Of a stretch of DNA of 46,828 nt, positions 6,612 through 20,628 are shown piece after piece. Each line of letters opens with the position of its first letter. Positions within the stretch are counted from its first letter, which is position 1. Under the pieces are notes generated by a model. It did not search any database. It saw only the letters and a program-made list of their open reading frames with translations, and had not been told where the DNA came from. Origin of the DNA: a virus; the IMG/VR virus record IMGVR_UViG_3300011126_000169, positions 1 to 46,828 of that record. One strand, written 5' to 3'. A program made the position numbers and the translations under genes.

Positions 6612-8759
6612 CTAGTTTTTACCCAAAGCAAAAGTTTTCGTATCTTTCCCTCGGACATTTCTCTTAACAACTTCCAGAATCGTACCATCGTGAACCATTT
6701 CCTTCAGAGTTGAATATCGTTCGTTTGGCTTGAGCTTCCTCATATGTCTCATGTTATTGATATCCGACATTCTTACGACACGATTTTCCTTCGCATGTTT
6801 TTCCATCATCTGGACTATCGCATTTTTCGCAACATCACCCTCATTCTCACCAACCTCGTTTTTGAATAGTTCAACAGAATACTCACATGCTGCACCAACG
6901 AGCTTTAAATTCCTTTTCATGATTTCATGAGTGATTATCGGTTCTTCTGGATTTTCCGCTATAGCATCGATCATAGCATATTTCTTAGAGTTAGCGACAT
7001 GCCTGTTCCATACCTCAGCTTCCAATCCACGGAACTTAGAGTTTTTCACCGTTGTTTCATAACAGAGGTCTTTCGCCTTTTCATCAAACTCTACTAGAAC
7101 TGGCTTATGAATTCGTGATGCTGGATATTGACGTTCTTTGTCACTTCTGTGCTTTTCAATGACCCTTAGCTTAGATCGGAGTTTTCCGCGTATCTTTAAT
7201 TTCTTTCTTTCACGTAGATGTTTTTCTACATATTGAGTAACTGGAAAAAATATCATGCGGGATGCTGAACCATAAGATAAGAACGTAGAGTCTAGTCCCG
7301 TGGTGATTAAGCGTGGTGTAGTAGCACCAGACAATATAATGTGTGGAGCATAGAGTATTTCTGAGGCCTTTTCTGGTAGCTTCTTTACGAGTGCTCTTTC
7401 ATTTACTGTTTCATCTGCTTTTGTGTAGAACTTTAGGAGCATCTCTAGGATTTCACGTTTGCGATTATCCTTTTTAGCTGCTTGCATTAAACCACCGACT
7501 TCGTCCTGTAGCCAGATAACATCGTGCTTTGCACCAACTGTGCGAAGTTTTAGATCGATACCCTCTGGACTACCGACTTCCTCCATGATACCGCCTGCGA
7601 TTTGTTTCTTCTTTTCATCCTTTAAGAATATACAGTCCATGACTTTGCCGAACTGATTAAACAGTAAATCTTTACCGCAACCCGTTTCACCAATCGCAAT
7701 CTGTTGAATGTTCACACGGTCACCATCGGTGCTGGCATATTTTCCACCAGCTAGGTATGCGACAATTGAACGTGCGGCTAATCCTGCGACCATTATATTA
7801 GGAACCCACCACGTTTCATGGAGTGCCATAGTAAGCTCGCCAATCGCAGTATCAGGTGGAACTATAATATCTAGTGGAAGTTTCTTTGCTCTTACTGAAT
7901 TTGTGAAATTGCTTATGTCTGCAAATTCGTACTCTTCCCCATCTTCATGTTCTTCAGCCGCGTATTTCTCAACCGCTGAGTTAGCACATTCGAATAAGTG
8001 TTCTTCCGACATCCGGTCTTGCCATCGTTTGTCCCGATCGGCTTCTGGAACTCTTTCCATATCCTGTTGTAAAATAGCAATGATTTCATCTGTATCGAGT
8101 TTCCGATTTGCAAGCTCCATGGCACGATCACGCAAAGAGCCATGAAAGTCATCGGAATTCTTAATCGCTTTCTTTGCAGTTTTCTTATCATACTTTCCTT
8201 CCCGTTTTGTTGATGCTTTTAATTCTTTAGCTGGAGGGAAAGCAATCTTAATTTTTTCCCATGAGTGTTTCTTAAGAGAGCCGCCGACTACTTTCACTTT
8301 TCTAGCGTTGTCTAAATTCTTATTGTGATAGAAGTTTGGTAGGCGTAAGACACGAGCCAGATCACGAACGCCTTTATCGTTTCCGTGCTCATCGATCATG
8401 GTCTGCATTACTAGCTCGAATTCATCGAACTCAGTAGTTTCAGTAAGCCAGTAGTATTGATATTTACCTTCGGATGAAGAGACTATAATAGATGGAGGTA
8501 TTGGCCACTTCTTGCGAGGTGATTTGCGAGGATTATCATCATCAACCCAGATTGCTCTGACTGATCTAATATTTTTATTATTTCGCTTTTCGTTATTGAA
8601 TGAATTAACTGCAAAGAATACACAATATCCCTTACGATTTAGTTTTCTCATTTCTTTAAGTGAGGTTTGATTTCCTATTGCTGGCATGACCTTTTGATAA
8701 TCATACGCAGAGAATAAATGATCTTCCCCAAATAAATCTAAAAATTCTTTTGTTTTCAT
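6612..8759 (-). CDS. Bifunctional primase-helicase (RepB/AEP-like primase plus ATPase)
   Basis: A 715-residue replication protein. The N-terminal part looks like a RepB/archaeo-eukaryotic-type primase: AIWVDDDN (Asp cluster 73-75) followed by PPSIIVSSSEGKYQYYWLTE (about 88-107), the strand with the nucleotide-binding GKYQYYWL. The C-terminal half is a helicase-like ATPase of the DUF3987 style with Walker A GETGCGKD (357-364) and Walker B VIWLQDE (D419, E420). It is the first gene of the minus block and is divergent from the early plus genes across a 303-bp control region. It would prime and unwind for the DnaE-type polymerase encoded on the other strand. Note the Asp after the Walker A lysine, where Ser/Thr is usual. 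Confidence 0.8.
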   Translation of the reverse strand: MKTKEFLDLFGEDHLFSAYDYQKVMPAIGNQTSLKEMRKLNRKGYCVFFAVNSFNNEKRNNKNIRSVRAIWVDDDNPRKSPRKKWPIPPSIIVSSSEGKYQYYWLTETTEFDEFELVMQTMIDEHGNDKGVRDLARVLRLPNFYHNKNLDNARKVKVVGGSLKKHSWEKIKIAFPPAKELKASTKREGKYDKKTAKKAIKNSDDFHGSLRDRAMELANRKLDTDEIIAILQQDMERVPEADRDKRWQDRMSEEHLFECANSAVEKYAAEEHEDGEEYEFADISNFTNSVRAKKLPLDIIVPPDTAIGELTMALHETWWVPNIMVAGLAARSIVAYLAGGKYASTDGDRVNIQQIAIGETGCGKDLLFNQFGKVMDCIFLKDEKKKQIAGGIMEEVGSPEGIDLKLRTVGAKHDVIWLQDEVGGLMQAAKKDNRKREILEMLLKFYTKADETVNERALVKKLPEKASEILYAPHIILSGATTPRLITTGLDSTFLSYGSASRMIFFPVTQYVEKHLRERKKLKIRGKLRSKLRVIEKHRSDKERQYPASRIHKPVLVEFDEKAKDLCYETTVKNSKFRGLEAEVWNRHVANSKKYAMIDAIAENPEEPIITHEIMKRNLKLVGAACEYSVELFKNEVGENEGDVAKNAIVQMMEKHAKENRVVRMSDINNMRHMRKLKPNERYSTLKEMVHDGTILEVVKRNVRGKDTKTFALGKN

Positions 8760-8773
8760 TGTTGCCCCTAAAA

Positions 8774-8809
8774 GGTGGAGCCGATGTAGGGGTCCACACC
8801 GACTCCGAT
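8774..8809. promoter_or_regulatory. Paired operator-like dyads in the divergent early control region
   Basis: Two related 12-mers face each other: GGTGGAGCCGAT at 8774-8785, whose complement is ATCGGCTCCACC, and ACCGACTCCGAT at 8798-8809. They match the dyad ATCGGCTCCGAT found at 14955-14966 and, with one arm base changed, ATCGGCTCCGGT at 15043-15054. They lie between the primase-helicase start and the plus-strand early genes. I infer a shared regulator-binding site; the regulator is unknown. Confidence 0.45.
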
Positions 8810-8827
8810 TAATTCAGCCACCGTCGT

Positions 8828-8846
8828 AACTGAACGGCAAAGTATA
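8828..8846 (+). promoter_or_regulatory. Phage-specific promoter-like element, copy 1
   Basis: AACTGAACGGCAAAGTATA here is identical at 18 of 19 positions to AACTGAACGGCACAGTATA at 14994-15012. Both sit in non-coding DNA on the same strand, both end in a TATA-like -10 box, and both have a CTCCGAT dyad 20-30 bp upstream. No -35 hexamer resembling TTGACA is present, so the conserved AACTGAACGGC block may take its place (activator site or a phage-modified polymerase). Inference from two copies only. Confidence 0.45.
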
Positions 8847-8938
8847 CCTTATATATATAGGAATTAAAAACGCTGGCAATACGCAATGGAGCAGCTTTGA
8901 GGGGGAATTGAAAAAATAAATTTTGCCTCGTTATGAAT

Positions 8939-8966
8939 TTGCTATTCGCTTGTACTCTAGTATAAT
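8939..8966 (+). promoter_or_regulatory. Sigma-70-type early promoter
   Basis: TTGCTA (8939-8944) and a perfect TATAAT (8961-8966) are separated by 16 bp. The predicted transcription start is near 8973, immediately before an 11-bp inverted repeat and 90 bp upstream of the first plus-strand gene at 9063. This is the best host-type promoter I see and is suited to immediate-early expression. Confidence 0.6.
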
Positions 8967-10195: not shown

Positions 10196-10865
10196 AATAA
10201 AGAAAACTGGAAACGTACATGAGGATGGAATTAAATGTCTCGTGTACGGTAAGGGCGGTATCGGTAAAACTACTCTTATGGGTACTGCTCCAAAGCCAAT
10301 TGTTCTTTCTTGTGAGTCTGGTATGTTGGCACTTGCAGACAAGAACATTCCTTACATTGAAATACAAACCGTGGAGGAAATTTACGAAGCGTATGATTAT
10401 TTAATGAGCAGTAAAGGCAAGCGTTATGAGACTATCTGTCTTGACTCTGTGAGTGAAATAGCGGAACTTGTTTTAAGCGATTTAAAAAAGCAGTACAAGG
10501 ATGCTCGCCAAGCATACGGTGAGCTGGCCGAAGAAGTTACGACACTTGTAAGAAAGTTTCGTGACATTAAAGGCAAGAATGTTATTTTTAGTGCAAAGCA
10601 AAAACGTATAACAGATGAAGACACTGGTCTTACTCAATATGTTGCATCGATGCCTGGAAATAACTTGACAAATTCTATGCCATTCTTTTTTGATGAAGTG
10701 TTTTACATGACACTACACGAAAAGGATGATGGCAAAGAAGTTCGTGTTCTTAAAACTCAAACAAGTTTTGATCACGATGCAAAAGATCGTTCTGGGAAAC
10801 TTAAAAAACTGGAACTTCCTAACTTAACTAGAATATTTAACAAAATCTCTAAAGGAGATAAATAA
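10185..10865 (+). CDS. Sak4-like RecA-fold ATPase / single-strand annealing protein
   Basis: A phage AAA ATPase of the Sak4 type. Counting from the in-frame GTG at 10182, the P-loop GKGGIGKT lies at 23-30 and a Walker B strand ETICLDSV near 83-90. Further typical elements are NVIFSAKQKRITDEDTG and a C-terminal segment for oligomer contacts. GTG codons at 10182 and 10185 are both possible starts; AGGAGG at 10173-10178 is better spaced for 10185. Sak4 proteins promote homologous recombination together with an SSB, and the next gene is DUF669, the standard partner. The N-terminal part overlaps the end of the preceding gene. Confidence 0.8.
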   Translation: MAIKIKKTGNVHEDGIKCLVYGKGGIGKTTLMGTAPKPIVLSCESGMLALADKNIPYIEIQTVEEIYEAYDYLMSSKGKRYETICLDSVSEIAELVLSDLKKQYKDARQAYGELAEEVTTLVRKFRDIKGKNVIFSAKQKRITDEDTGLTQYVASMPGNNLTNSMPFFFDEVFYMTLHEKDDGKEVRVLKTQTSFDHDAKDRSGKLKKLELPNLTRIFNKISKGDK

Positions 10866-10866
10866 G

Positions 10867-11565
10867 ATGGCAAAGCTACCAAGTACGTTTAAACGAAAAG
10901 ATCATGGCAAAATGGCAGATTTCTCTGCAGTCCCTGCTGGTGAATACATTGCTAAGATTACTTCAAGTAAGTATGAAGCAAACAGTAAAAAAACTGGTCA
11001 TGGTTTAACCCTTGTATTTGAAATTCAGAATAAAGAATTCAAAGGCAAGAAGGTTTTCACTCTGCTTAATCTAGATAATCCAAATGAACAGACTGTTGAA
11101 ATGGCGAACAATGAGTTTGCAACAATCTGTGATGCAGCCGGTAAGGGTACAGTAAAAGACTCTGATCAGTTGCACGGCATCCCAATGATCATCACTGTTA
11201 AACTTGTTCCGGCCGAAGGTAAGTGGCCTGAGAAGAATGAAATTTCCATGTACGACAAAATGGACAGTAAAAGTGGTGATTCAGATGATGAACTGGAAGA
11301 AGAGGATGATCCTGATGAAGTTGCCGATCCTGAAGATGATCCAGAAGAATCAGTAGATGAAGAGGAAGATGAAAAGGAAGAAAGTGATAGTGATATCACT
11401 GTTGAATCCGTGCAAGAACAAGCTCGTGAGTACAAAAAGGAAAACAATCTTAAAGCATTGAAGAAAATGCTGGGTGAATATGATATTGAGAAAATATCTC
11501 AAATCGGTGACCTTGATGAAGACGATCTTGAAGCCTTGCACGAAGACTTTGAAGACGAACTTTAA
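10867..11565 (+). CDS. DUF669 protein, phage single-stranded-DNA-binding-like
   Basis: A 232-residue protein. The N-terminal DUF669 domain contains AGEYIAKITSSKYEANSKKT, GLTLVFEIQ and KGKKVFTLLNLDNPN (about residues 20-85). A long acidic low-complexity linker follows (Asp/Glu run at about 138-175), then a C-terminal helical module. DUF669 proteins behave as SSB-like partners of Sak4, and the acidic tail resembles SSB tails that recruit other proteins, although here a folded C-terminus follows it. It begins one base after the Sak4 stop. Role in strand protection and annealing is inferred from family and neighbour. Confidence 0.75.
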   Translation: MAKLPSTFKRKDHGKMADFSAVPAGEYIAKITSSKYEANSKKTGHGLTLVFEIQNKEFKGKKVFTLLNLDNPNEQTVEMANNEFATICDAAGKGTVKDSDQLHGIPMIITVKLVPAEGKWPEKNEISMYDKMDSKSGDSDDELEEEDDPDEVADPEDDPEESVDEEEDEKEESDSDITVESVQEQAREYKKENNLKALKKMLGEYDIEKISQIGDLDEDDLEALHEDFEDEL

Positions 11566-11923: not shown

Positions 11924-12111
11924 TGCCACACGTTGAATTTGAATTTGTAGAAATAGATGAAGGTCATGCTATGGTCACAGATGAAATTGGAACGCTACAC
12001 GCTATTCCAGATCACATGGTTGACATTGATATTAAAGAGCTTGAAGCTGGCGATAGTTGCGTAATCTTTTTAAGTGAAGAATATTGTGAAATGAATGGAG
12101 TGTTCATTTAA
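11923..12111 (+). CDS. Small hypothetical protein, 62 aa
   Basis: I choose the ATG at 11923, which overlaps the preceding stop (TAATG) and has CTGGAGAG upstream. The upstream in-frame ATG at 11890 lies inside the zinc-finger gene. The product is acidic and beta-rich (MPHVEFEFVEIDEGHAMVTD), perhaps a small barrel resembling DUF3006-type proteins, though the similarity is weak. It ends on the start of the nuclease gene. Confidence 0.5.
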   Translation: MPHVEFEFVEIDEGHAMVTDEIGTLHAIPDHMVDIDIKELEAGDSCVIFLSEEYCEMNGVFI

Positions 12112-12992
12112 TGGTTTTAATTCCTGATAATACTAAAACTACTGAACACGTTATTGAAACGAAAGAGTTCGGTGGAAAGAGGCCTCGTGAATATCTTGGA
12201 ATGAGTTCTCTTGGAAATGAATGTCTTCGTGCTCAGTGGTACACTTGGCATTGGTCTAAAATTGGAAAAGTTATTGCCCGTGTAAATAGAATTTTCAATT
12301 ATGGGCATCATGAAGAAGAGCATATTATTCATGATCTAAAAGAAGCAGGAATGAAAGTCTATCTTGTAAATGAAGAAGGCAATGAAGTTTCTATGACTGG
12401 TATAGTTGGAGAAGAACAAGAAACTATTGTTGGATTTCACCAACATTGTAAAGGTCATCCTGATGGTAGAGTGTTAGGTGTAATTGAAGCACCAAAAACT
12501 CCACACCTTTTAGAAATGAAAACCATGAATGATAAATGGTTTCAAGTTTTAAAAGAAGCAATCTTTAAGCACGGTCCAGAAAAAGGATTGAAAGAAGCAT
12601 TTGCTGGATACTACGATCAAATGACGAGGTACATGGGTGGATTAAAATTAACCCGTGGACTGTTTATTGCAACTAATAAAAATGATCAGGCCAGAAGATA
12701 TGTTCGTGTTCACTTTAATAAGAAAAGATTTGAGACTTTGGTTGAAAGAGAAGAGCTCATTATTACTAGCGAGCTTCCACCAAAGAAAAAATATAAGGCA
12801 GATCATTATAAGTGTGCTTTCTGCAATCACCATCAGGTTTGTCATCTTGGTGCAATACCTGCTGTTAATTGTCGCACTTGTAAGTTTAGCGATCTTCTAC
12901 CTGCTGGAAAATGGGGTTGTGGAAAAACTGGAAAAAGACTGAGCTACAATAAGCAATTACGTGGATGCAGGTCTTATAAGAGATTATTCTAA
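12111..12992 (+). CDS. PD-(D/E)XK exonuclease, Cas4/RecB-like
   Basis: A 293-residue nuclease. The catalytic core shows GHPDGRVLGVIE (D near 118) and LLEMKTM (E-x-K near 134-137) after an N-terminal helical part with GMSSLGNECLRAQWYTWH. The C-terminal third has many cysteines (CAFCNHHQVCH, CRTCKF, WGCGK, RGCRSY), suggesting an Fe-S cluster or zinc site as in Cas4/AddB-type nucleases. It is followed directly by the DEAH helicase, with which it may form a resection unit feeding Sak4 annealing. Activity is assigned by motif only. Confidence 0.7.
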   Translation: MVLIPDNTKTTEHVIETKEFGGKRPREYLGMSSLGNECLRAQWYTWHWSKIGKVIARVNRIFNYGHHEEEHIIHDLKEAGMKVYLVNEEGNEVSMTGIVGEEQETIVGFHQHCKGHPDGRVLGVIEAPKTPHLLEMKTMNDKWFQVLKEAIFKHGPEKGLKEAFAGYYDQMTRYMGGLKLTRGLFIATNKNDQARRYVRVHFNKKRFETLVEREELIITSELPPKKKYKADHYKCAFCNHHQVCHLGAIPAVNCRTCKFSDLLPAGKWGCGKTGKRLSYNKQLRGCRSYKRLF

Positions 12993-14635
12993 TGTATAAA
13001 GAAAGATGGTATCAAAGAAGAGCTACGAAAAAGACTCTACAATCTTTAGAAAAAGGGAACCACCCCTGCACTGTCCTTCCAACTGGTAGTGGAAAAACTA
13101 TCGTTGTTTGTAAGCTTACCGAGAAGTACCTTGACTCATACATCGAAAATGACGTATTAATTTTAAGTCATCGAAAGAAAATACTTGAGCAAGATCATGC
13201 TGCACTTTCTAAGCATTTTCCTGACTTTGAAGTTGGCCTGTATAGTGCTGGACTAAAGAGCAAAGTTAAAACAAAAATTACAGTCGCAGGAATTCAGTCC
13301 GTGTGGCGTAAACCAAATCTGTTTCAAAATGTTGGGCTGGTCATTATTGATGAAGCTCATCTTATTAATCACGATGCAGATGGAATGTATAGAAGTTTCC
13401 TTGAAAAGATTCCTGCTCAATACGTTGGACTTACTGCCACTCCATTTAGACTAGGGCATGGCTACATATATAAGGGAGAGAAAACCCTTTTCAATGACCT
13501 TGCATACGATCTAAGCAGCACGGAAAACTATAACAAGCTTGTTGATCAAGGTTATCTTTCTCCAATGTACTCTAGGAAAACTAAATTTGTTGTAGATACT
13601 TCCAAGATAAAGATGAAAGGAAAAGAGTTTGATCAAGAAAGCTCTAAGTCTCAATTTGATCGGGAAGGAATAACAGATGTAGCCTGTAATGAAATTGTTC
13701 GTGAAGCAACTGAGCAAGGTCTTGAAAAATGGCTAGTGTTTGCAATTGATATTGAACATGCAGAACACATCACTGCGAAAATGCAAGAGCTTGGAGTTGC
13801 GTGTGCATGTGTACATAGCAAAATGAAGGGCGAAGAAATAATTCTGGACATGTATCGTAAGGGAATTTATAAGTGCATAGTCAATGTAGACATTTTAACA
13901 ACTGGATTAGATATTCCTGATATAGATTTAATCGGAGTATTAAGGCCAACTGAATCGCCTGCATTGCATGTGCAAATTCTTGGACGTGGTGGCCGACCAG
14001 TTTACGCTGATGGCTTTGATCTTTCTAAAAAGAAAGAAAGAGTTAAGGCAATAGCAAAGGGAAAGAAACCATTCTGTTTAGTTTTGGATTTCGCTGGAAA
14101 TGTTAATCGCCTTGGTCCAATCAATGCCGTGCTTGTTGAGGAAAAGAAAGAAAGAAAAGGAAAAGGAAATGGAGAAGGAATAACTAAGGTATGTTCTAAG
14201 TGTGAAACAATTGTTCATGCTGCTACTCGTTTTTGTGACTGTTGTGGACATAAGTTTGAATTCAAGCAAAAGATTTTAACGGAAAGTTCTGATAGTGATG
14301 TAATTGCAAAGGCAATGAAAGATGCACAAGAAGGGGTTTGGCATGAAGTTGATGAAGTAAGATATTCAATTCATAGCTCTCGTGGAAAAGCTTCTTCAAT
14401 GAAAGTTAACTATCGATGTGGAATGATGAATTTCATTGAGTATGTTTGCCTCGACCACGGTGGATATCCGAGGCATTTGGCGAACCATTGGGTTAGATCA
14501 AGATTAAGGCATGGTCAGCGCAAGCCGAAAAATCTTTCTGAGCTATTCAAGATAAAAGATGAATTGAGAATTCCTAAGAAAATTCAAGCAAAAAGAAACG
14601 GGCGATGGATGTCGGTGGAAAACTGGAGCTTTTAG
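12992..14635 (+). CDS. Superfamily 2 DEAH-box helicase
   Basis: A 547-residue SF2 helicase: Q-like RWYQRRATKK, Walker A PTGSGKT (30-36), DEAH (120-123), GLTATPFR (146-153), then RecA-like domain 2 with NVDILTTGLDIPDID and QILGRGGRP (motif VI). A zinc module CSKCETI...CDCCGHKF starts near residue 401 and a basic C-terminal domain follows. It overlaps the nuclease stop by one base and ends the first early operon. It probably acts in recombination-dependent replication or branch processing (family inference). Confidence 0.88.
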   Translation: MYKERWYQRRATKKTLQSLEKGNHPCTVLPTGSGKTIVVCKLTEKYLDSYIENDVLILSHRKKILEQDHAALSKHFPDFEVGLYSAGLKSKVKTKITVAGIQSVWRKPNLFQNVGLVIIDEAHLINHDADGMYRSFLEKIPAQYVGLTATPFRLGHGYIYKGEKTLFNDLAYDLSSTENYNKLVDQGYLSPMYSRKTKFVVDTSKIKMKGKEFDQESSKSQFDREGITDVACNEIVREATEQGLEKWLVFAIDIEHAEHITAKMQELGVACACVHSKMKGEEIILDMYRKGIYKCIVNVDILTTGLDIPDIDLIGVLRPTESPALHVQILGRGGRPVYADGFDLSKKKERVKAIAKGKKPFCLVLDFAGNVNRLGPINAVLVEEKKERKGKGNGEGITKVCSKCETIVHAATRFCDCCGHKFEFKQKILTESSDSDVIAKAMKDAQEGVWHEVDEVRYSIHSSRGKASSMKVNYRCGMMNFIEYVCLDHGGYPRHLANHWVRSRLRHGQRKPKNLSELFKIKDELRIPKKIQAKRNGRWMSVENWSF

Positions 14636-14670
14636 TATATTAGCGAATACTTATGGAAACAGGTGGAATT

Positions 14671-14743
14671 GTGGCAAATAAGGCCAATTTGCCACCCAAA
14701 ACAGGCCAATTTGCACCCAAAACACTACATCTTGGGGTGCAAA
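14671..14743 (+). repeat. Imperfect tandem repeat with two 9-bp hairpins
   Basis: AGGCCAATTTGC-type units of 22 bp (14681-14702) and 21 bp (14703-14723) differ by one deleted base. GTGGCAAAT (14671-14679) pairs with ATTTGCCAC (14687-14695), and TTTGCACCC (14710-14718) pairs with GGGTGCAAA (14735-14743). No T run follows either hairpin, so a simple intrinsic terminator is unlikely. Origin, recombination site or protein-binding array are alternatives. Confidence 0.55.
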
Positions 14744-14954
14744 CAGGCTAAAACCACTATATATTGGGGTATTCACCAGTTATCTAGGGTGCTACAATAC
14801 ACCCATGGATGTCGCTACTATATATAAGGTATAGCAAACCACATATAGCAAGCCCCTAGCCACCGGATGCCAGTATGCCAAACATAAACTGTCCGGAAAA
14901 TGGAAAAAGGCGAAAAAGTGAAATGAAACTTTAAATGGAAAATTGATTTGCAAG

Positions 14955-14966
14955 ATCGGCTCCGAT
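14955..14966 (+). promoter_or_regulatory. Operator-like dyad
   Basis: ATCGGCTCCGAT is an inverted repeat (ATCGG / CCGAT, 2-bp centre), 28 bp upstream of the promoter-like element. Related sites lie at 8774-8785, 8798-8809 and 15043-15054. Confidence 0.45.
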
Positions 14967-14993
14967 AACTTAAATCAAAATTAAGAATTCAAA

Positions 14994-15014
14994 AACTGAA
15001 CGGCACAGTATAAT
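14994..15014 (+). promoter_or_regulatory. Phage-specific promoter-like element, copy 2
   Basis: AACTGAACGGCACAGTATA (14994-15012) extends into a perfect TATAAT at 15009-15014. It matches the copy at 8828-8846 at 18 of 19 positions. The predicted start near 15021 would give a leader of about 130 nt that includes the hammerhead ribozyme, ahead of the gene at 15154. Confidence 0.5.
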
Positions 15015-15042
15015 GTCGGGCATAGGATTGGACAAAGTGAAA

Positions 15043-15054
15043 ATCGGCTCCGGT
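15043..15054 (+). promoter_or_regulatory. Operator-like dyad downstream of the promoter
   Basis: ATCGGCTCCGGT differs from the 14955 dyad by one base. If transcription starts near 15021, this copy would lie within the transcribed leader, a possible roadblock position. Confidence 0.4.
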
Positions 15055-15074
15055 TAAACTTTTAAAAATTATGC

Positions 15075-15128
15075 ACTTGTCTTAATCAAAGCAGATTAAC
15101 TGATGAGGCCTGAAGCTGGCCGAAACAT
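15075..15128 (+). ncRNA. Hammerhead ribozyme, type III topology
   Basis: All core elements are present in the right order. The cleavage triplet GTC is at 15079-15081. Stem I is a perfect 6 bp, TTAATC (15082-15087) with GATTAA (15094-15099), loop AAAGCA. CTGATGA follows at 15100-15106. Stem II is GGCC (15107-15110) with GGCC (15118-15121), loop TGAAGCT. GAAA is at 15122-15125. Stem III is the open end: TGT (15078-15080) pairs with ACA (15125-15127), only 3 bp, possibly extended by CACTT (15074-15078) with AAGTG (15142-15146). Predicted self-cleavage is after C15081. It sits in the leader of the gene at 15154. Confidence 0.85.
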
Positions 15129-15153
15129 AACAACTATATAAAAGTGAAACATT

Positions 15154-15456
15154 ATGAAAAATTCAAATAGAAAAACTTGTATCGTTCTTGAAGAGTATGA
15201 TCAAAAAGTTATTGATGCACTGAGTAGAAATATTTTTAATATATACGAGCACGATGTAACCTTAACAATAAACAATAAGCAATATGAATGCTATATTGAA
15301 TATATGAGTGGTGATCATATTCTTGTTTGTGGTGATACTGTTTACCATCACGAAAATAATATGTTCTATGTTGATACTAAAACTTATATCTATGCCGGTG
15401 ATATGGAATGGCAAGTGTTAGGTATTCAGCAAACTGCAAACTCAATTCAATTTTAA
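15154..15456 (+). CDS. Hypothetical protein downstream of the ribozyme, 100 aa
   Basis: The first gene of the second early block, 23 bases after the ribozyme's GAAA-stem III. MKNSNRKTCIVLEEYDQKVI leads into alternating strands (LTINNKQYECYIEYMSGDHI), a small beta-rich fold. No clear Shine-Dalgarno is visible (AAAGTGAAAC precedes the ATG), so leader structure or ribozyme cleavage could influence translation. The family is not recognised. Confidence 0.6.
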   Translation: MKNSNRKTCIVLEEYDQKVIDALSRNIFNIYEHDVTLTINNKQYECYIEYMSGDHILVCGDTVYHHENNMFYVDTKTYIYAGDMEWQVLGIQQTANSIQF

Positions 15457-15466
15457 GGGGAACACC

Positions 15467-15670
15467 ATGCAAGTAGATCAAAACAACTTTACAAAAACAT
15501 TCGCAAAAATGATCGTAATCCACGAAGCACATTATATTGAAGTTACACTTCCTATTTTAAAATTGAAATTTTATTTTAATGTTGACCACATGAATAGATT
15601 GCAAAGGGAAAAGGCTCGCATGAATTATGTTCGCCTTATGCGTCACATGGAGGTAATGCAAAATGTGTAA
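15467..15670 (+). CDS. Small hypothetical protein, 67 aa
   Basis: Start at 15467 with AAGGGGAAC just upstream (15454-15462). The protein is basic at the C-terminus (MNRLQREKARMNYVRLMRHM) with an N-terminal beta part. It overlaps the next gene start by 8 bases. No family is recognised. Confidence 0.55.
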   Translation: MQVDQNNFTKTFAKMIVIHEAHYIEVTLPILKLKFYFNVDHMNRLQREKARMNYVRLMRHMEVMQNV

Positions 15671-16153: not shown

Positions 16154-17500
16154 ATGGCCAGAAAACTAAAACAACTACATCCGGCTCAAAAAAGATTAAT
16201 CTTAGACTATGCAGGAGTGGCAGCAGTTCGCAGTCAACCTAAAAAGGCCTCTGAATTAGAGCAGCTATATAGTCTATTTAAAAATACCGAGGAGGAAAGA
16301 TTCCAAGCTGCATACGATGTTATTATTAATAAGATAACTCCAAGTGGTGATAATAATGCAGTAGTAGCCGCAAAGGTTTCTGAAATTGTTGAATCCAATT
16401 TAAAGTTTCAGGAAAGCCAGTCTGTAAATGAAATAACAAAAGCATTTATGGACCAAACAGAAAAAACTGCAAAGGATGCAATAGAAATTGTTCAACGCGA
16501 AGTTGAAAAATATAAAAAGGATTTTATAACTCATCAAGTTAAAATTGGAACCAAGAAAGCTAAGAAAATAAAAGGTATGGTATGCGAACAATTTCCAGAC
16601 CTTTTACAACTAGCATCAGCACGGATAAACATTATGATGATTGGTCCTGCTGGTTGTGGTAAAACTCACATTGCTGGTCAGCTTGCTGAATCTTTAGAAT
16701 TAGATTTTGCCAGTCAATCATGTTCAGCTGGTATGAGCGAATCCCAATTAACTGGATGGCTGTTACCACTTAAAGGTGGAAACTTTGAGTATGTTGCCAG
16801 TGAGTTTATTCGCATTTATGAAAATGGTGGAGTATTTTTACTTGATGAAATGGATGCGGCTGATCCAAATGTTTTAATTTTCATTAACCAAGCACTAGCC
16901 AACACTCAATTCTCATTACCTCAGCGTCACAAGAAGCCTGTCGTTAAACGTCATAAAGATTTCGTGGCCGTGGCAGCATGTAATACTTTCGGCGGTGGAG
17001 CGGATGCGATGTACCATGCTCGTAATGCTTTGGATGCCTCAACAATTGATAGATTTAAAATGGGTATGGTTGCCATTGATTATTCTGAAAAAGTTGAGCG
17101 CAACTTAGTTGATGAAGACATATTGGAGTGGGGAACAGAAATTCGTGAATCAATTCAAAAACATGGTATGCGAAAAATTATGTCTACTCGTGTTTTGCGT
17201 GATGCAACTACAATGATGGGAGTTGGCTGGGATTTAGATCGCATCGCAACTTCATATTTCTTGGATTGGTCTCCTGAGGAAATTGCAATTATAGAAAAAG
17301 ATTGTGACCATCCAACCAAACCTTCAAAAGCAATGAAGCGAAAAGTGGTTAGTGCAGAAGTAGATGGAAAATGGCCTGAAGGTCCAAGTGATGAAGCCCT
17401 AAGAGTAATGGATGGAAAATTTCAAGAAGAACTTCTTAGCGATTCTCAAAAGGCTAAGAGAAGAAGAGAAGAAAGAATGCGCAATCAATGGAGAGCATAA
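16154..17500 (+). CDS. AAA+ ATPase of the MoxR/CobS type
   Basis: A 448-residue ATPase. The N-terminal 150 residues are helical and coiled-coil-like. The AAA core follows with Walker A GPAGCGKTH (about 164-172), Walker B GGVFLLDEMDAADPN (about 226-240), sensor 1 FVAVAACNTFGGG and a sensor-2 region STRVLRDATTMMG. It resembles CobS, the small subunit of cobalt chelatase, and phage MoxR proteins. The next gene is the usual partner. In phages such pairs are thought to remodel a protein or metal complex; the target is unknown. It has a strong leader at 16138-16150. Confidence 0.8.
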   Translation: MARKLKQLHPAQKRLILDYAGVAAVRSQPKKASELEQLYSLFKNTEEERFQAAYDVIINKITPSGDNNAVVAAKVSEIVESNLKFQESQSVNEITKAFMDQTEKTAKDAIEIVQREVEKYKKDFITHQVKIGTKKAKKIKGMVCEQFPDLLQLASARINIMMIGPAGCGKTHIAGQLAESLELDFASQSCSAGMSESQLTGWLLPLKGGNFEYVASEFIRIYENGGVFLLDEMDAADPNVLIFINQALANTQFSLPQRHKKPVVKRHKDFVAVAACNTFGGGADAMYHARNALDASTIDRFKMGMVAIDYSEKVERNLVDEDILEWGTEIRESIQKHGMRKIMSTRVLRDATTMMGVGWDLDRIATSYFLDWSPEEIAIIEKDCDHPTKPSKAMKRKVVSAEVDGKWPEGPSDEALRVMDGKFQEELLSDSQKAKRRREERMRNQWRA

Positions 17501-19630: not shown

Positions 19631-19828
19631 ATGAGCATCGTTAGAGAAAACTTGATGACCCAAAAAGGATACACTCCTTATTGTGGAGAACCTGATTGCC
19701 ACATAATGCCTAGAACATTTTTTGATGGGGAGCAATTTAATTGCCCTCTGTGCCACTGGAAATCTGAATTTGATGAAAAGTTTATCAAAGAATATAAAGC
19801 TAAATGGAGAATTAAATGCAAAACTTGA
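19631..19828 (+). CDS. Small zinc-ribbon-like protein, 65 aa
   Basis: It has a Cys/His pattern YCGEPDCH and NCPLCHW, a plausible zinc ribbon, and a basic C-terminus ending KWRIKCKT. A perfect AAAACTGGAGAAT leader is at 19613-19625. It overlaps the sulfotransferase start by 13 bases, so the two are co-translated. Function unknown. Confidence 0.6.
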   Translation: MSIVRENLMTQKGYTPYCGEPDCHIMPRTFFDGEQFNCPLCHWKSEFDEKFIKEYKAKWRIKCKT

Positions 19829-20628
19829 AACCCAACGACAATAAATTCGTTGTCCCGAATACGTTTATCATCGGAGCAGCAAAAGCAGGAACATCCTCAC
19901 TTGCCGCGATGCTTGGTCAGCATCCTGAAATTCTTTTATCCACTCCGAAGGAAACAAACTTTTTCCAAACTGGTGATTATCAGCACGGATTAGAATGGAT
20001 GGCCAAGAAATATTTCCGTGGCTACAATCACGAAAAAGTAATACTGGATGCCAGTCCAGATTACATGCACTTGAAATATGTCACAGATCGTATTGAACAA
20101 AGTTGCACTAATCCGAAATTCATTTTTATTCTACGTGAGCCAATTTCTAGAGCATACTCACAATATGCAATGTTTCGTGATTTCAGACCTGGACGTATGC
20201 CAGCAACTTTTATTGCAGAAATAAATAGAAATCTTAACGTATTCTCTGAAAATAGATTTTACTGTGAATATGAAAGAATGGGAAATGTGGACATAAAAGG
20301 TGGAAGCTATGACCCTTTTATTATTGAGCAAGGGCTTTACTATAATGACATTGCAAGATATATAAATCGTTTCGGTCGTGAAAATATTTATATATGCACA
20401 ATTGAAGACCTAATACATCAAACTGAAAAACTAGTTTTTGAATTACTCACATTCTTAGGAATTGGATTTTATAAATTCATTAAGGAGAAAAGAAATATTG
20501 GTAAGGCAGAAAGATTTGAATTGAGTGGTCCATTAAGTAGCGAGCTATGCAGAATTTATGTTCCGCAAGTAGAAAGGGTTGGAAAACTAATTGGTAGAAA
20601 TTTAATTGAAGAATGGGAGATGTGTTAA
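19816..20628 (+). CDS. PAPS-dependent sulfotransferase
   Basis: A 270-residue enzyme of the Sulfotransfer_1 type, which moves sulfate from PAPS to a hydroxyl or amine, commonly on sugars. The 5' phosphosulfate loop is IIGAAKAGTSSL (KAGTSS 23-28) and the 3' phosphate motif is FILREPISRAYS (R107, S111, S115). The typical LYYNDIARYINRFGRENIYI and IEDLIHQ...LLTFLGI elements follow. No signal peptide, so it acts in the host cytoplasm. It overlaps the upstream zinc gene and the downstream glycosyltransferase-like gene, suggesting one pathway. The acceptor is unknown. Confidence 0.88.
   Translation: MQNLKPNDNKFVVPNTFIIGAAKAGTSSLAAMLGQHPEILLSTPKETNFFQTGDYQHGLEWMAKKYFRGYNHEKVILDASPDYMHLKYVTDRIEQSCTNPKFIFILREPISRAYSQYAMFRDFRPGRMPATFIAEINRNLNVFSENRFYCEYERMGNVDIKGGSYDPFIIEQGLYYNDIARYINRFGRENIYICTIEDLIHQTEKLVFELLTFLGIGFYKFIKEKRNIGKAERFELSGPLSSELCRIYVPQVERVGKLIGRNLIEEWEMC

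Follow-up and report, generated by a model that had tools for sequence, protein, structure and literature searches.

A virus represented by a 46,828-base record, the whole of which was analyzed and is hereafter termed the window, carries what is by its sequence a genuine type III hammerhead ribozyme, situated in the leader of an early operon. The element belongs to a known class, with its contact loops exchanged relative to most of its relatives, and it is present in a single copy in the window. It is likely that co-transcriptional cleavage at this site would provide the operon mRNA with a fixed, hairpin-capped 5'-hydroxyl end. The coordinates of the ribozyme and its surroundings are collected in Table 1.

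Table 1. Features of the ribozyme locus in the window
Feature	Position	Strand	Basis or relatives
Exonuclease-helicase genes, same strand, upstream of ribozyme	12111-14635		
Conserved block ACGGCACAGTATAATGTCGGG...AGGATTGGACAAAGT, 5' of ribozyme	15000..15044	.	Common to L002, partly to L057/L139 (otherwise different phages)
Imperfect dyad ATCGGCTCCGGT in leader; operator or RNA hairpin	15044..15055	.	Perfect ACCGGATCCGGT in L002
Type III hammerhead ribozyme, whole element	15078..15127	+	Sequence; phage type III covariance model; Rfam Hammerhead_3 below cutoff
Stem III, 5' strand UGU, pairing with ACA 15125-15127 (3 bp only)	15078..15080	+	
GTC cleavage triplet	15079-15081	+	Read directly
C17, predicted cut 3' of this base, leaving 5'-OH at 15082	15081	+	Analogy with hammerhead core
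Stem I hairpin TTAATC-AAAGCA-GATTAA (arms 15082-15087 and 15094-15099, 6 bp; loop AAAGCA)	15082..15099	+	Sequence, read directly; stem covaries in L057, L137, L138, L002
Catalytic core CTGATGA	15100..15106	+	Invariant among aligned relatives
Stem II hairpin GGCC-TGAAGCT-GGCC (arms 15107-15110 and 15118-15121; loop TGAAGCT, complementary to stem I loop, AGC with GCU)	15107..15121	+	Read directly
Catalytic core GAA + A15.1 (GAAA)	15122..15125	+	Invariant among aligned relatives
First gene after ribozyme, 100 aa, no known family	15154..15456	+	L002 orthologue at 8390
AAA_5 ATPase (phrog_249) of operon	16154..17500	+	L008 and L012 relatives also preceded by type II hammerheads

The invariant core CUGANGA...GAA and an NUH cleavage triplet are both present, and stems of 6, 4 and 3 bp surround the core in type III order with stem III open, an order that is also found in L002, L057, L137 and L138. 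A sequence-only reading had earlier proposed the element, and direct reading confirmed that GTC, CTGATGA, GAAA and the three stems are all located where it had placed them. Its predicted cut after C15081 indeed lies 72 nt before the ATG at 15154, while 26 nt separate the end of the ribozyme from this start codon.

Hammerheads for comparison were gathered by pattern from viral contigs and, in addition, from genome contigs. At the gathering cutoff, Rfam returned no match anywhere in the window. RF00008 Hammerhead_3 was the best ribozyme match, yet its score of 21.7 bits stays far below the cutoff of 48.5. L057, L137, L138 and L002 likewise miss this cutoff, which therefore excludes this phage subtype. 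A covariance model was then built from 38 aligned phage type III hammerheads, leaving out the window, L002 and the loop-exchanged loci; it recognized the window element at 15077-15128 with 38.1 bits (E = 5.8e-10), the next-best match in the window having E = 0.34. When 202 Mb of composition-matched first-order Markov sequence were scanned with a permissive descriptor of the type III fold (6/4/3 bp, NUH, CTGANGA, GAAA), two matches appeared, or ~0.001 per window, a rarity that makes chance unlikely and is not decisive by itself given the many windows read. It is the independent covariance model together with a syntenic, covarying homologue that settles the identity of the element as a hammerhead.

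This homologue resides in L002, a 13.4-kb contig whose ATPase, helicase and exonuclease proteins are 66-77% identical to those of the window, and which was the only further relative returned by a helicase-based search. Its hammerhead occupies the syntenic site, scores 56.2 bits by the phage type III covariance model and reads CUGUU-UUGGGAUGUGCAUCCCAA-CUGAUGA-UUCCAAAAGGAU-GAAACAG. The two elements share 12/12 core letters and only 7/18 positions of the stem I hairpin, which nevertheless remains perfectly paired; such compensated replacement of stem I with an intact core is the signature of selection on RNA structure. Stem III of L002 has 4 bp (CUGU/ACAG) at the matching place. Its loop pair, TGTGCA/AAAA, is a third type that is also present in L081 and that we take to resemble the sTRSV loops more closely. 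The leader immediately 5' of the ribozyme (14961-15074) is about 70-83% identical between the two phages. In L002 an additional small gene follows the ribozyme and precedes the 15154 orthologue, so the ribozyme goes with the leader and not with one gene.

The same architecture was observed in the unrelated phages L057/L139, L137/L140 and L138. Among the four distinct sequences (window, L057, L137 and L138), five of the six stem I pairs are altered on both sides, and the observed stem I covariation score was reached by 0/500 shuffles, while stem II offers one compensated pair only. The search pattern had fixed the loops and core and left the stems free, so that no circularity affects the evidence from stem covariation; L057 itself first emerged from a pattern with both loops and stem I free. 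A tighter pattern using the stem II loop of the window itself gave zero matches in viral contigs. Covariation in homologous phages had been named beforehand as the refuting check, and it holds for stem I and more weakly for stem II. Taken with the independent model and the L002 homologue, this four-locus covariation upholds, at the level of sequence, the earlier assignment of a type III hammerhead to the leader of an early operon. L138 also possesses a second loop-exchanged hammerhead (10821-10873), in which a single additional base separates the CUGAUGA core from stem II.

Loop I (AAAGCA) and loop II (TGAAGCT) of the window are complementary through AGC/GCU, and in L188 the corresponding GCC/GGC represents a compensated change. 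Across 66 distinct type III loop pairs, complementarity between loops I and II was found in 12, against 3.7 expected by permutation, and this number was matched in 0/5000 permutations. Loop-loop pseudoknots are already known among hammerheads (PMC3088659). In most relatives with these loops, stem I is capped by TGANGCT and stem II by (NN)AGCA, whereas in the window subtype AxAGCA caps stem I and TGANGCT caps stem II. The common phage type III class (e.g. L298, L289 and L271) shares with the window the two loop sequences, the 6-bp stem I, mostly a 4-bp stem II and the leader position, but has the loops on opposite stems; L298 (TGACGCT/ATAGCA) and L057 (ATAGCA/TGACGCT) are exact exchanges with equal stem lengths. 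The exchanged-loop pattern was absent from GTDB genome contigs, and a non-exhaustive text search of the literature found no report of loop exchange. We tentatively propose, as a reading whose balance is close to even, that the phage docking contact is pseudo-symmetric, NNAGCA and TGANGCT being swappable between stems I and II, and that a self-cleaving leader is kept while the ribozyme type is swapped. Under this joint reading, exchange with preserved stem lengths would define a loop-exchanged type III subtype (window, L057/L139, L137/L140 and L138), and with exchanged-loop type III, sTRSV-like type III and type II ribozymes replacing one another, selection would act on the setting of the 5' end itself.

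The position of phage hammerheads was assessed by the presence of an ATG-initiated ORF of >= 40 aa starting <= 50 nt downstream, in sets retrieved by search patterns with stem II fixed as GGCC or GTCC and thus representing a sample of phage hammerheads only. Two independent viral patterns together gave 72 non-redundant type III hammerheads, of which 64 were start-proximal by this measure, at a median of ~20 nt, compared with 28% of random same-strand points. With one element per IMG/VR contig, the figures were 54/60 for type III, 11/60 (18%) for antisense and 30% after ORF ends. Type I hammerheads behaved alike (138/177), and the 26-nt spacing of the window falls in the peak of the distribution. 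In the GTCC type III set, 33/40 were start-proximal and 8/40 when a Shine-Dalgarno sequence was demanded; many of the flanks in this set are A-rich and devoid of one. The survey suggests that the usual effect of such ribozymes is to define where phage mRNAs begin. In IMG/VR members of the GTCC type III set (e.g. L160, L191 and L192), the A-rich leaders between ribozyme and ATG resemble Bacteroidota-type translation starts. The type III hammerheads of L154 and L178 abut the ATG with zero spacer, such that the leader after cleavage would be the ribozyme alone. L036 harbors seven type I and L160 three type III hammerheads, and in most cases a small gene follows closely.

With reference to the operon itself, the first gene has a weak Shine-Dalgarno sequence, and named phages yielded neither a nucleotide match to the window nor a protein relative of this gene. 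Relatives of the ATPase were fetched regardless of ribozyme content. Among these more distant relatives, small genes and the ATPase are preceded by type II hammerheads in L012 (40.1 bits with Rfam) and in L008 (56.3 bits), L009 has these elements too, and L016 has a type III hammerhead ~1.6 kb downstream of the ATPase match. No hammerhead match was obtained in L003, which has the helicase/ATPase order of the window, or in the other ATPase relatives; the recurrence of hammerheads ahead of the ATPase operon is only suggestive. In L003, a long non-coding, apparently structured stretch (8280-8960), in which ARAGORN detected no tRNA or tmRNA, takes the place of the ribozyme leader. The two type II hammerheads of L008 (8169-8225 and 8596-8652) flank a single small gene, which would be released as its own mRNA. 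A sulfotransferase-family gene (PF00685) is situated among the early phage genes of the window at 19816-20628, with a similar gene in L002 at 12607.

Given this architecture, stem I would dock on stem II through the 3-bp kiss of loops I and II, compensating for the 3-bp stem III, and the transcript, while still being made, would cleave itself after C15081, with a 5'-hydroxyl and a 2',3'-cyclic phosphate as the predicted ends. The mRNA downstream of the cut would then open directly with stem I, its first nucleotide bearing the 5'-hydroxyl, and the stem II hairpin and the start codon would come next. One mRNA 5' end would thereby be fixed regardless of promoter or read-through, and the upstream leader would be removed. 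Phosphorylated 5' ends are the substrates of RppH, and a 5' monophosphate stimulates RNase E; a 5'-hydroxyl end, lacking the 5' phosphate used by 5'-end-dependent decay, would thus escape this route. The candidate benefits are mRNA stability, insulation and the separation of the operon from the helicase cistron.

The last of these may be the main function: an active hammerhead could chiefly separate cistrons by cutting read-through transcripts of the exonuclease-helicase genes into the ATPase operon, the two halves differing in fate. We regard this as possible rather than probable. The upstream genes are encoded on the same strand, no terminator was found at 14600-15500, and no convincing plus-strand promoter was found upstream of the ribozyme. 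The TATAAT at 15009-15014, previously proposed as a promoter, has no -35 hexamer and reads TATACG in L002; that proposal is not supported. Moreover, several phages have hammerheads before several genes (two in L008, three in L082 and seven in L036), and such processing was proposed by Perreault et al. (PMC3088659). Against it, the helicase and the operon are set apart by a 518-nt non-coding gap with conserved blocks, and across phages the ribozyme keeps near the next start codon.

The same gap contains further elements. The upstream block ACGGCACAGnATAATGTCGGG is common to the window and L057; since L057 has both, block and ribozyme may travel together. As a general promoter the block was rejected, because 2/4 pattern matches (L141 and L142) look coding, are without a hammerhead and are probably due to chance. 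Within the conserved block, the minus strand offers a promoter-like TTGTCC-17-TATACT (15007-15035) that scores 9/12 and is largely kept in L002, although such matches are equally frequent in shuffles. Between helicase and ribozyme, 100/145 aligned bases at 14800-14960 are identical in L002 with no Rfam match; this block is a possible origin, sRNA or regulatory region, and is accompanied by iteron-like repeats at 14675-14770. No tRNA or tmRNA was detected anywhere in the window.

A decayed or inactive hammerhead retained through recent descent is unlikely. The short stem III and a competing fold would be in keeping with decay: in the absence of tertiary contacts the hammerhead fold has -7.8 kcal/mol, 3.2 kcal/mol above the minimum-energy fold. 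This gap also counts against the preferred reading, as does the lack of significant folding in longer transcripts (z = -0.13). The more distant CACTT/AAGTG pairing that had been offered as support for stem III is absent in L002 and was rejected. Stem II of L002 differs from that of the window and has a U-U at 10.1/11.1, a type of mispair that served Perreault et al. to discard matches (PMC3088659), and owing to which the L002 copy may be slow. However, decay would hardly leave a fully identical core and a fully compensated stem I between the two phages, nor the exact loop pair in unrelated ones.

It is highly unlikely that the ribozyme is regulated, being gated by a protein or metabolite with cleavage toggled by the upstream dyad or by an outer pairing. 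The leader and dyad upstream are conserved, and 12-nt arms at 15053-15064 and 15139-15150 surround the ribozyme with 83% complementarity, but this outer pairing was rejected as it is not kept in L002, and no known RNA family was found in the leader. Lastly, a chance likeness, its conservation coming from a DNA operator or promoter, might appeal to the sub-cutoff Rfam score and to the many windows read, but its probability is practically negligible, the independent model, the syntenic homologue and stem I covariation effectively refuting it, as a DNA-binding site would not retain complementary stem I changes while its sequence was replaced.

A self-cleaving leader that fixes the operon's 5' end, the reading preferred here, has counterparts among known systems. 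A precedent in vivo is HHphage of haloviruses HF1/HF2, which precedes the start of an early helicase gene by 13 nt and for which the 5' end of the transcript was mapped to within 3 nt of where cleavage occurs (PMC3088659). Like the window element, it lies directly 5' of the start codon of the first early-operon gene; it differs in its altered, salt-adapted core and archaeal virus, the window having a canonical core and presumably a bacterial host. Bacterial and prophage type III hammerheads (RF00008) share the type III topology, invariant core and GUC triplet, whereas the window has a short stem III, exchanged kissing loops and a sub-cutoff score. The clustered prophage hammerheads flanking ardA and other genes (PMC3088659) likewise precede individual phage genes, the window differing in its single copy. 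RiboJ, a hammerhead derived from sTRSV that is inserted after the promoter and ahead of the ribosome-binding site, leaves a hairpin-containing 5' end after cleavage; with it, transcript levels rose about twofold and protein levels two- to tenfold (PMC6206723). By analogy, the window element may be the natural counterpart of this engineered insulator, the likeness being on the start-codon side; RiboJ, unlike it, is an engineered derivative of a plant satellite RNA with an extra hairpin on the 3' side. Any effect on mRNA stability suggested for the window is borrowed from RiboJ.

Overall, these results narrow the role of phage hammerheads, which in phage contigs are overwhelmingly start-codon-proximal leader elements, and the loop exchange serves as a natural test of stem I/stem II docking in hammerheads. 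Within one operon family the ribozyme type appears to change while the leader cleavage site stays, and start-proximity together with type swapping makes a direct live/dead-ribozyme test of the role possible.
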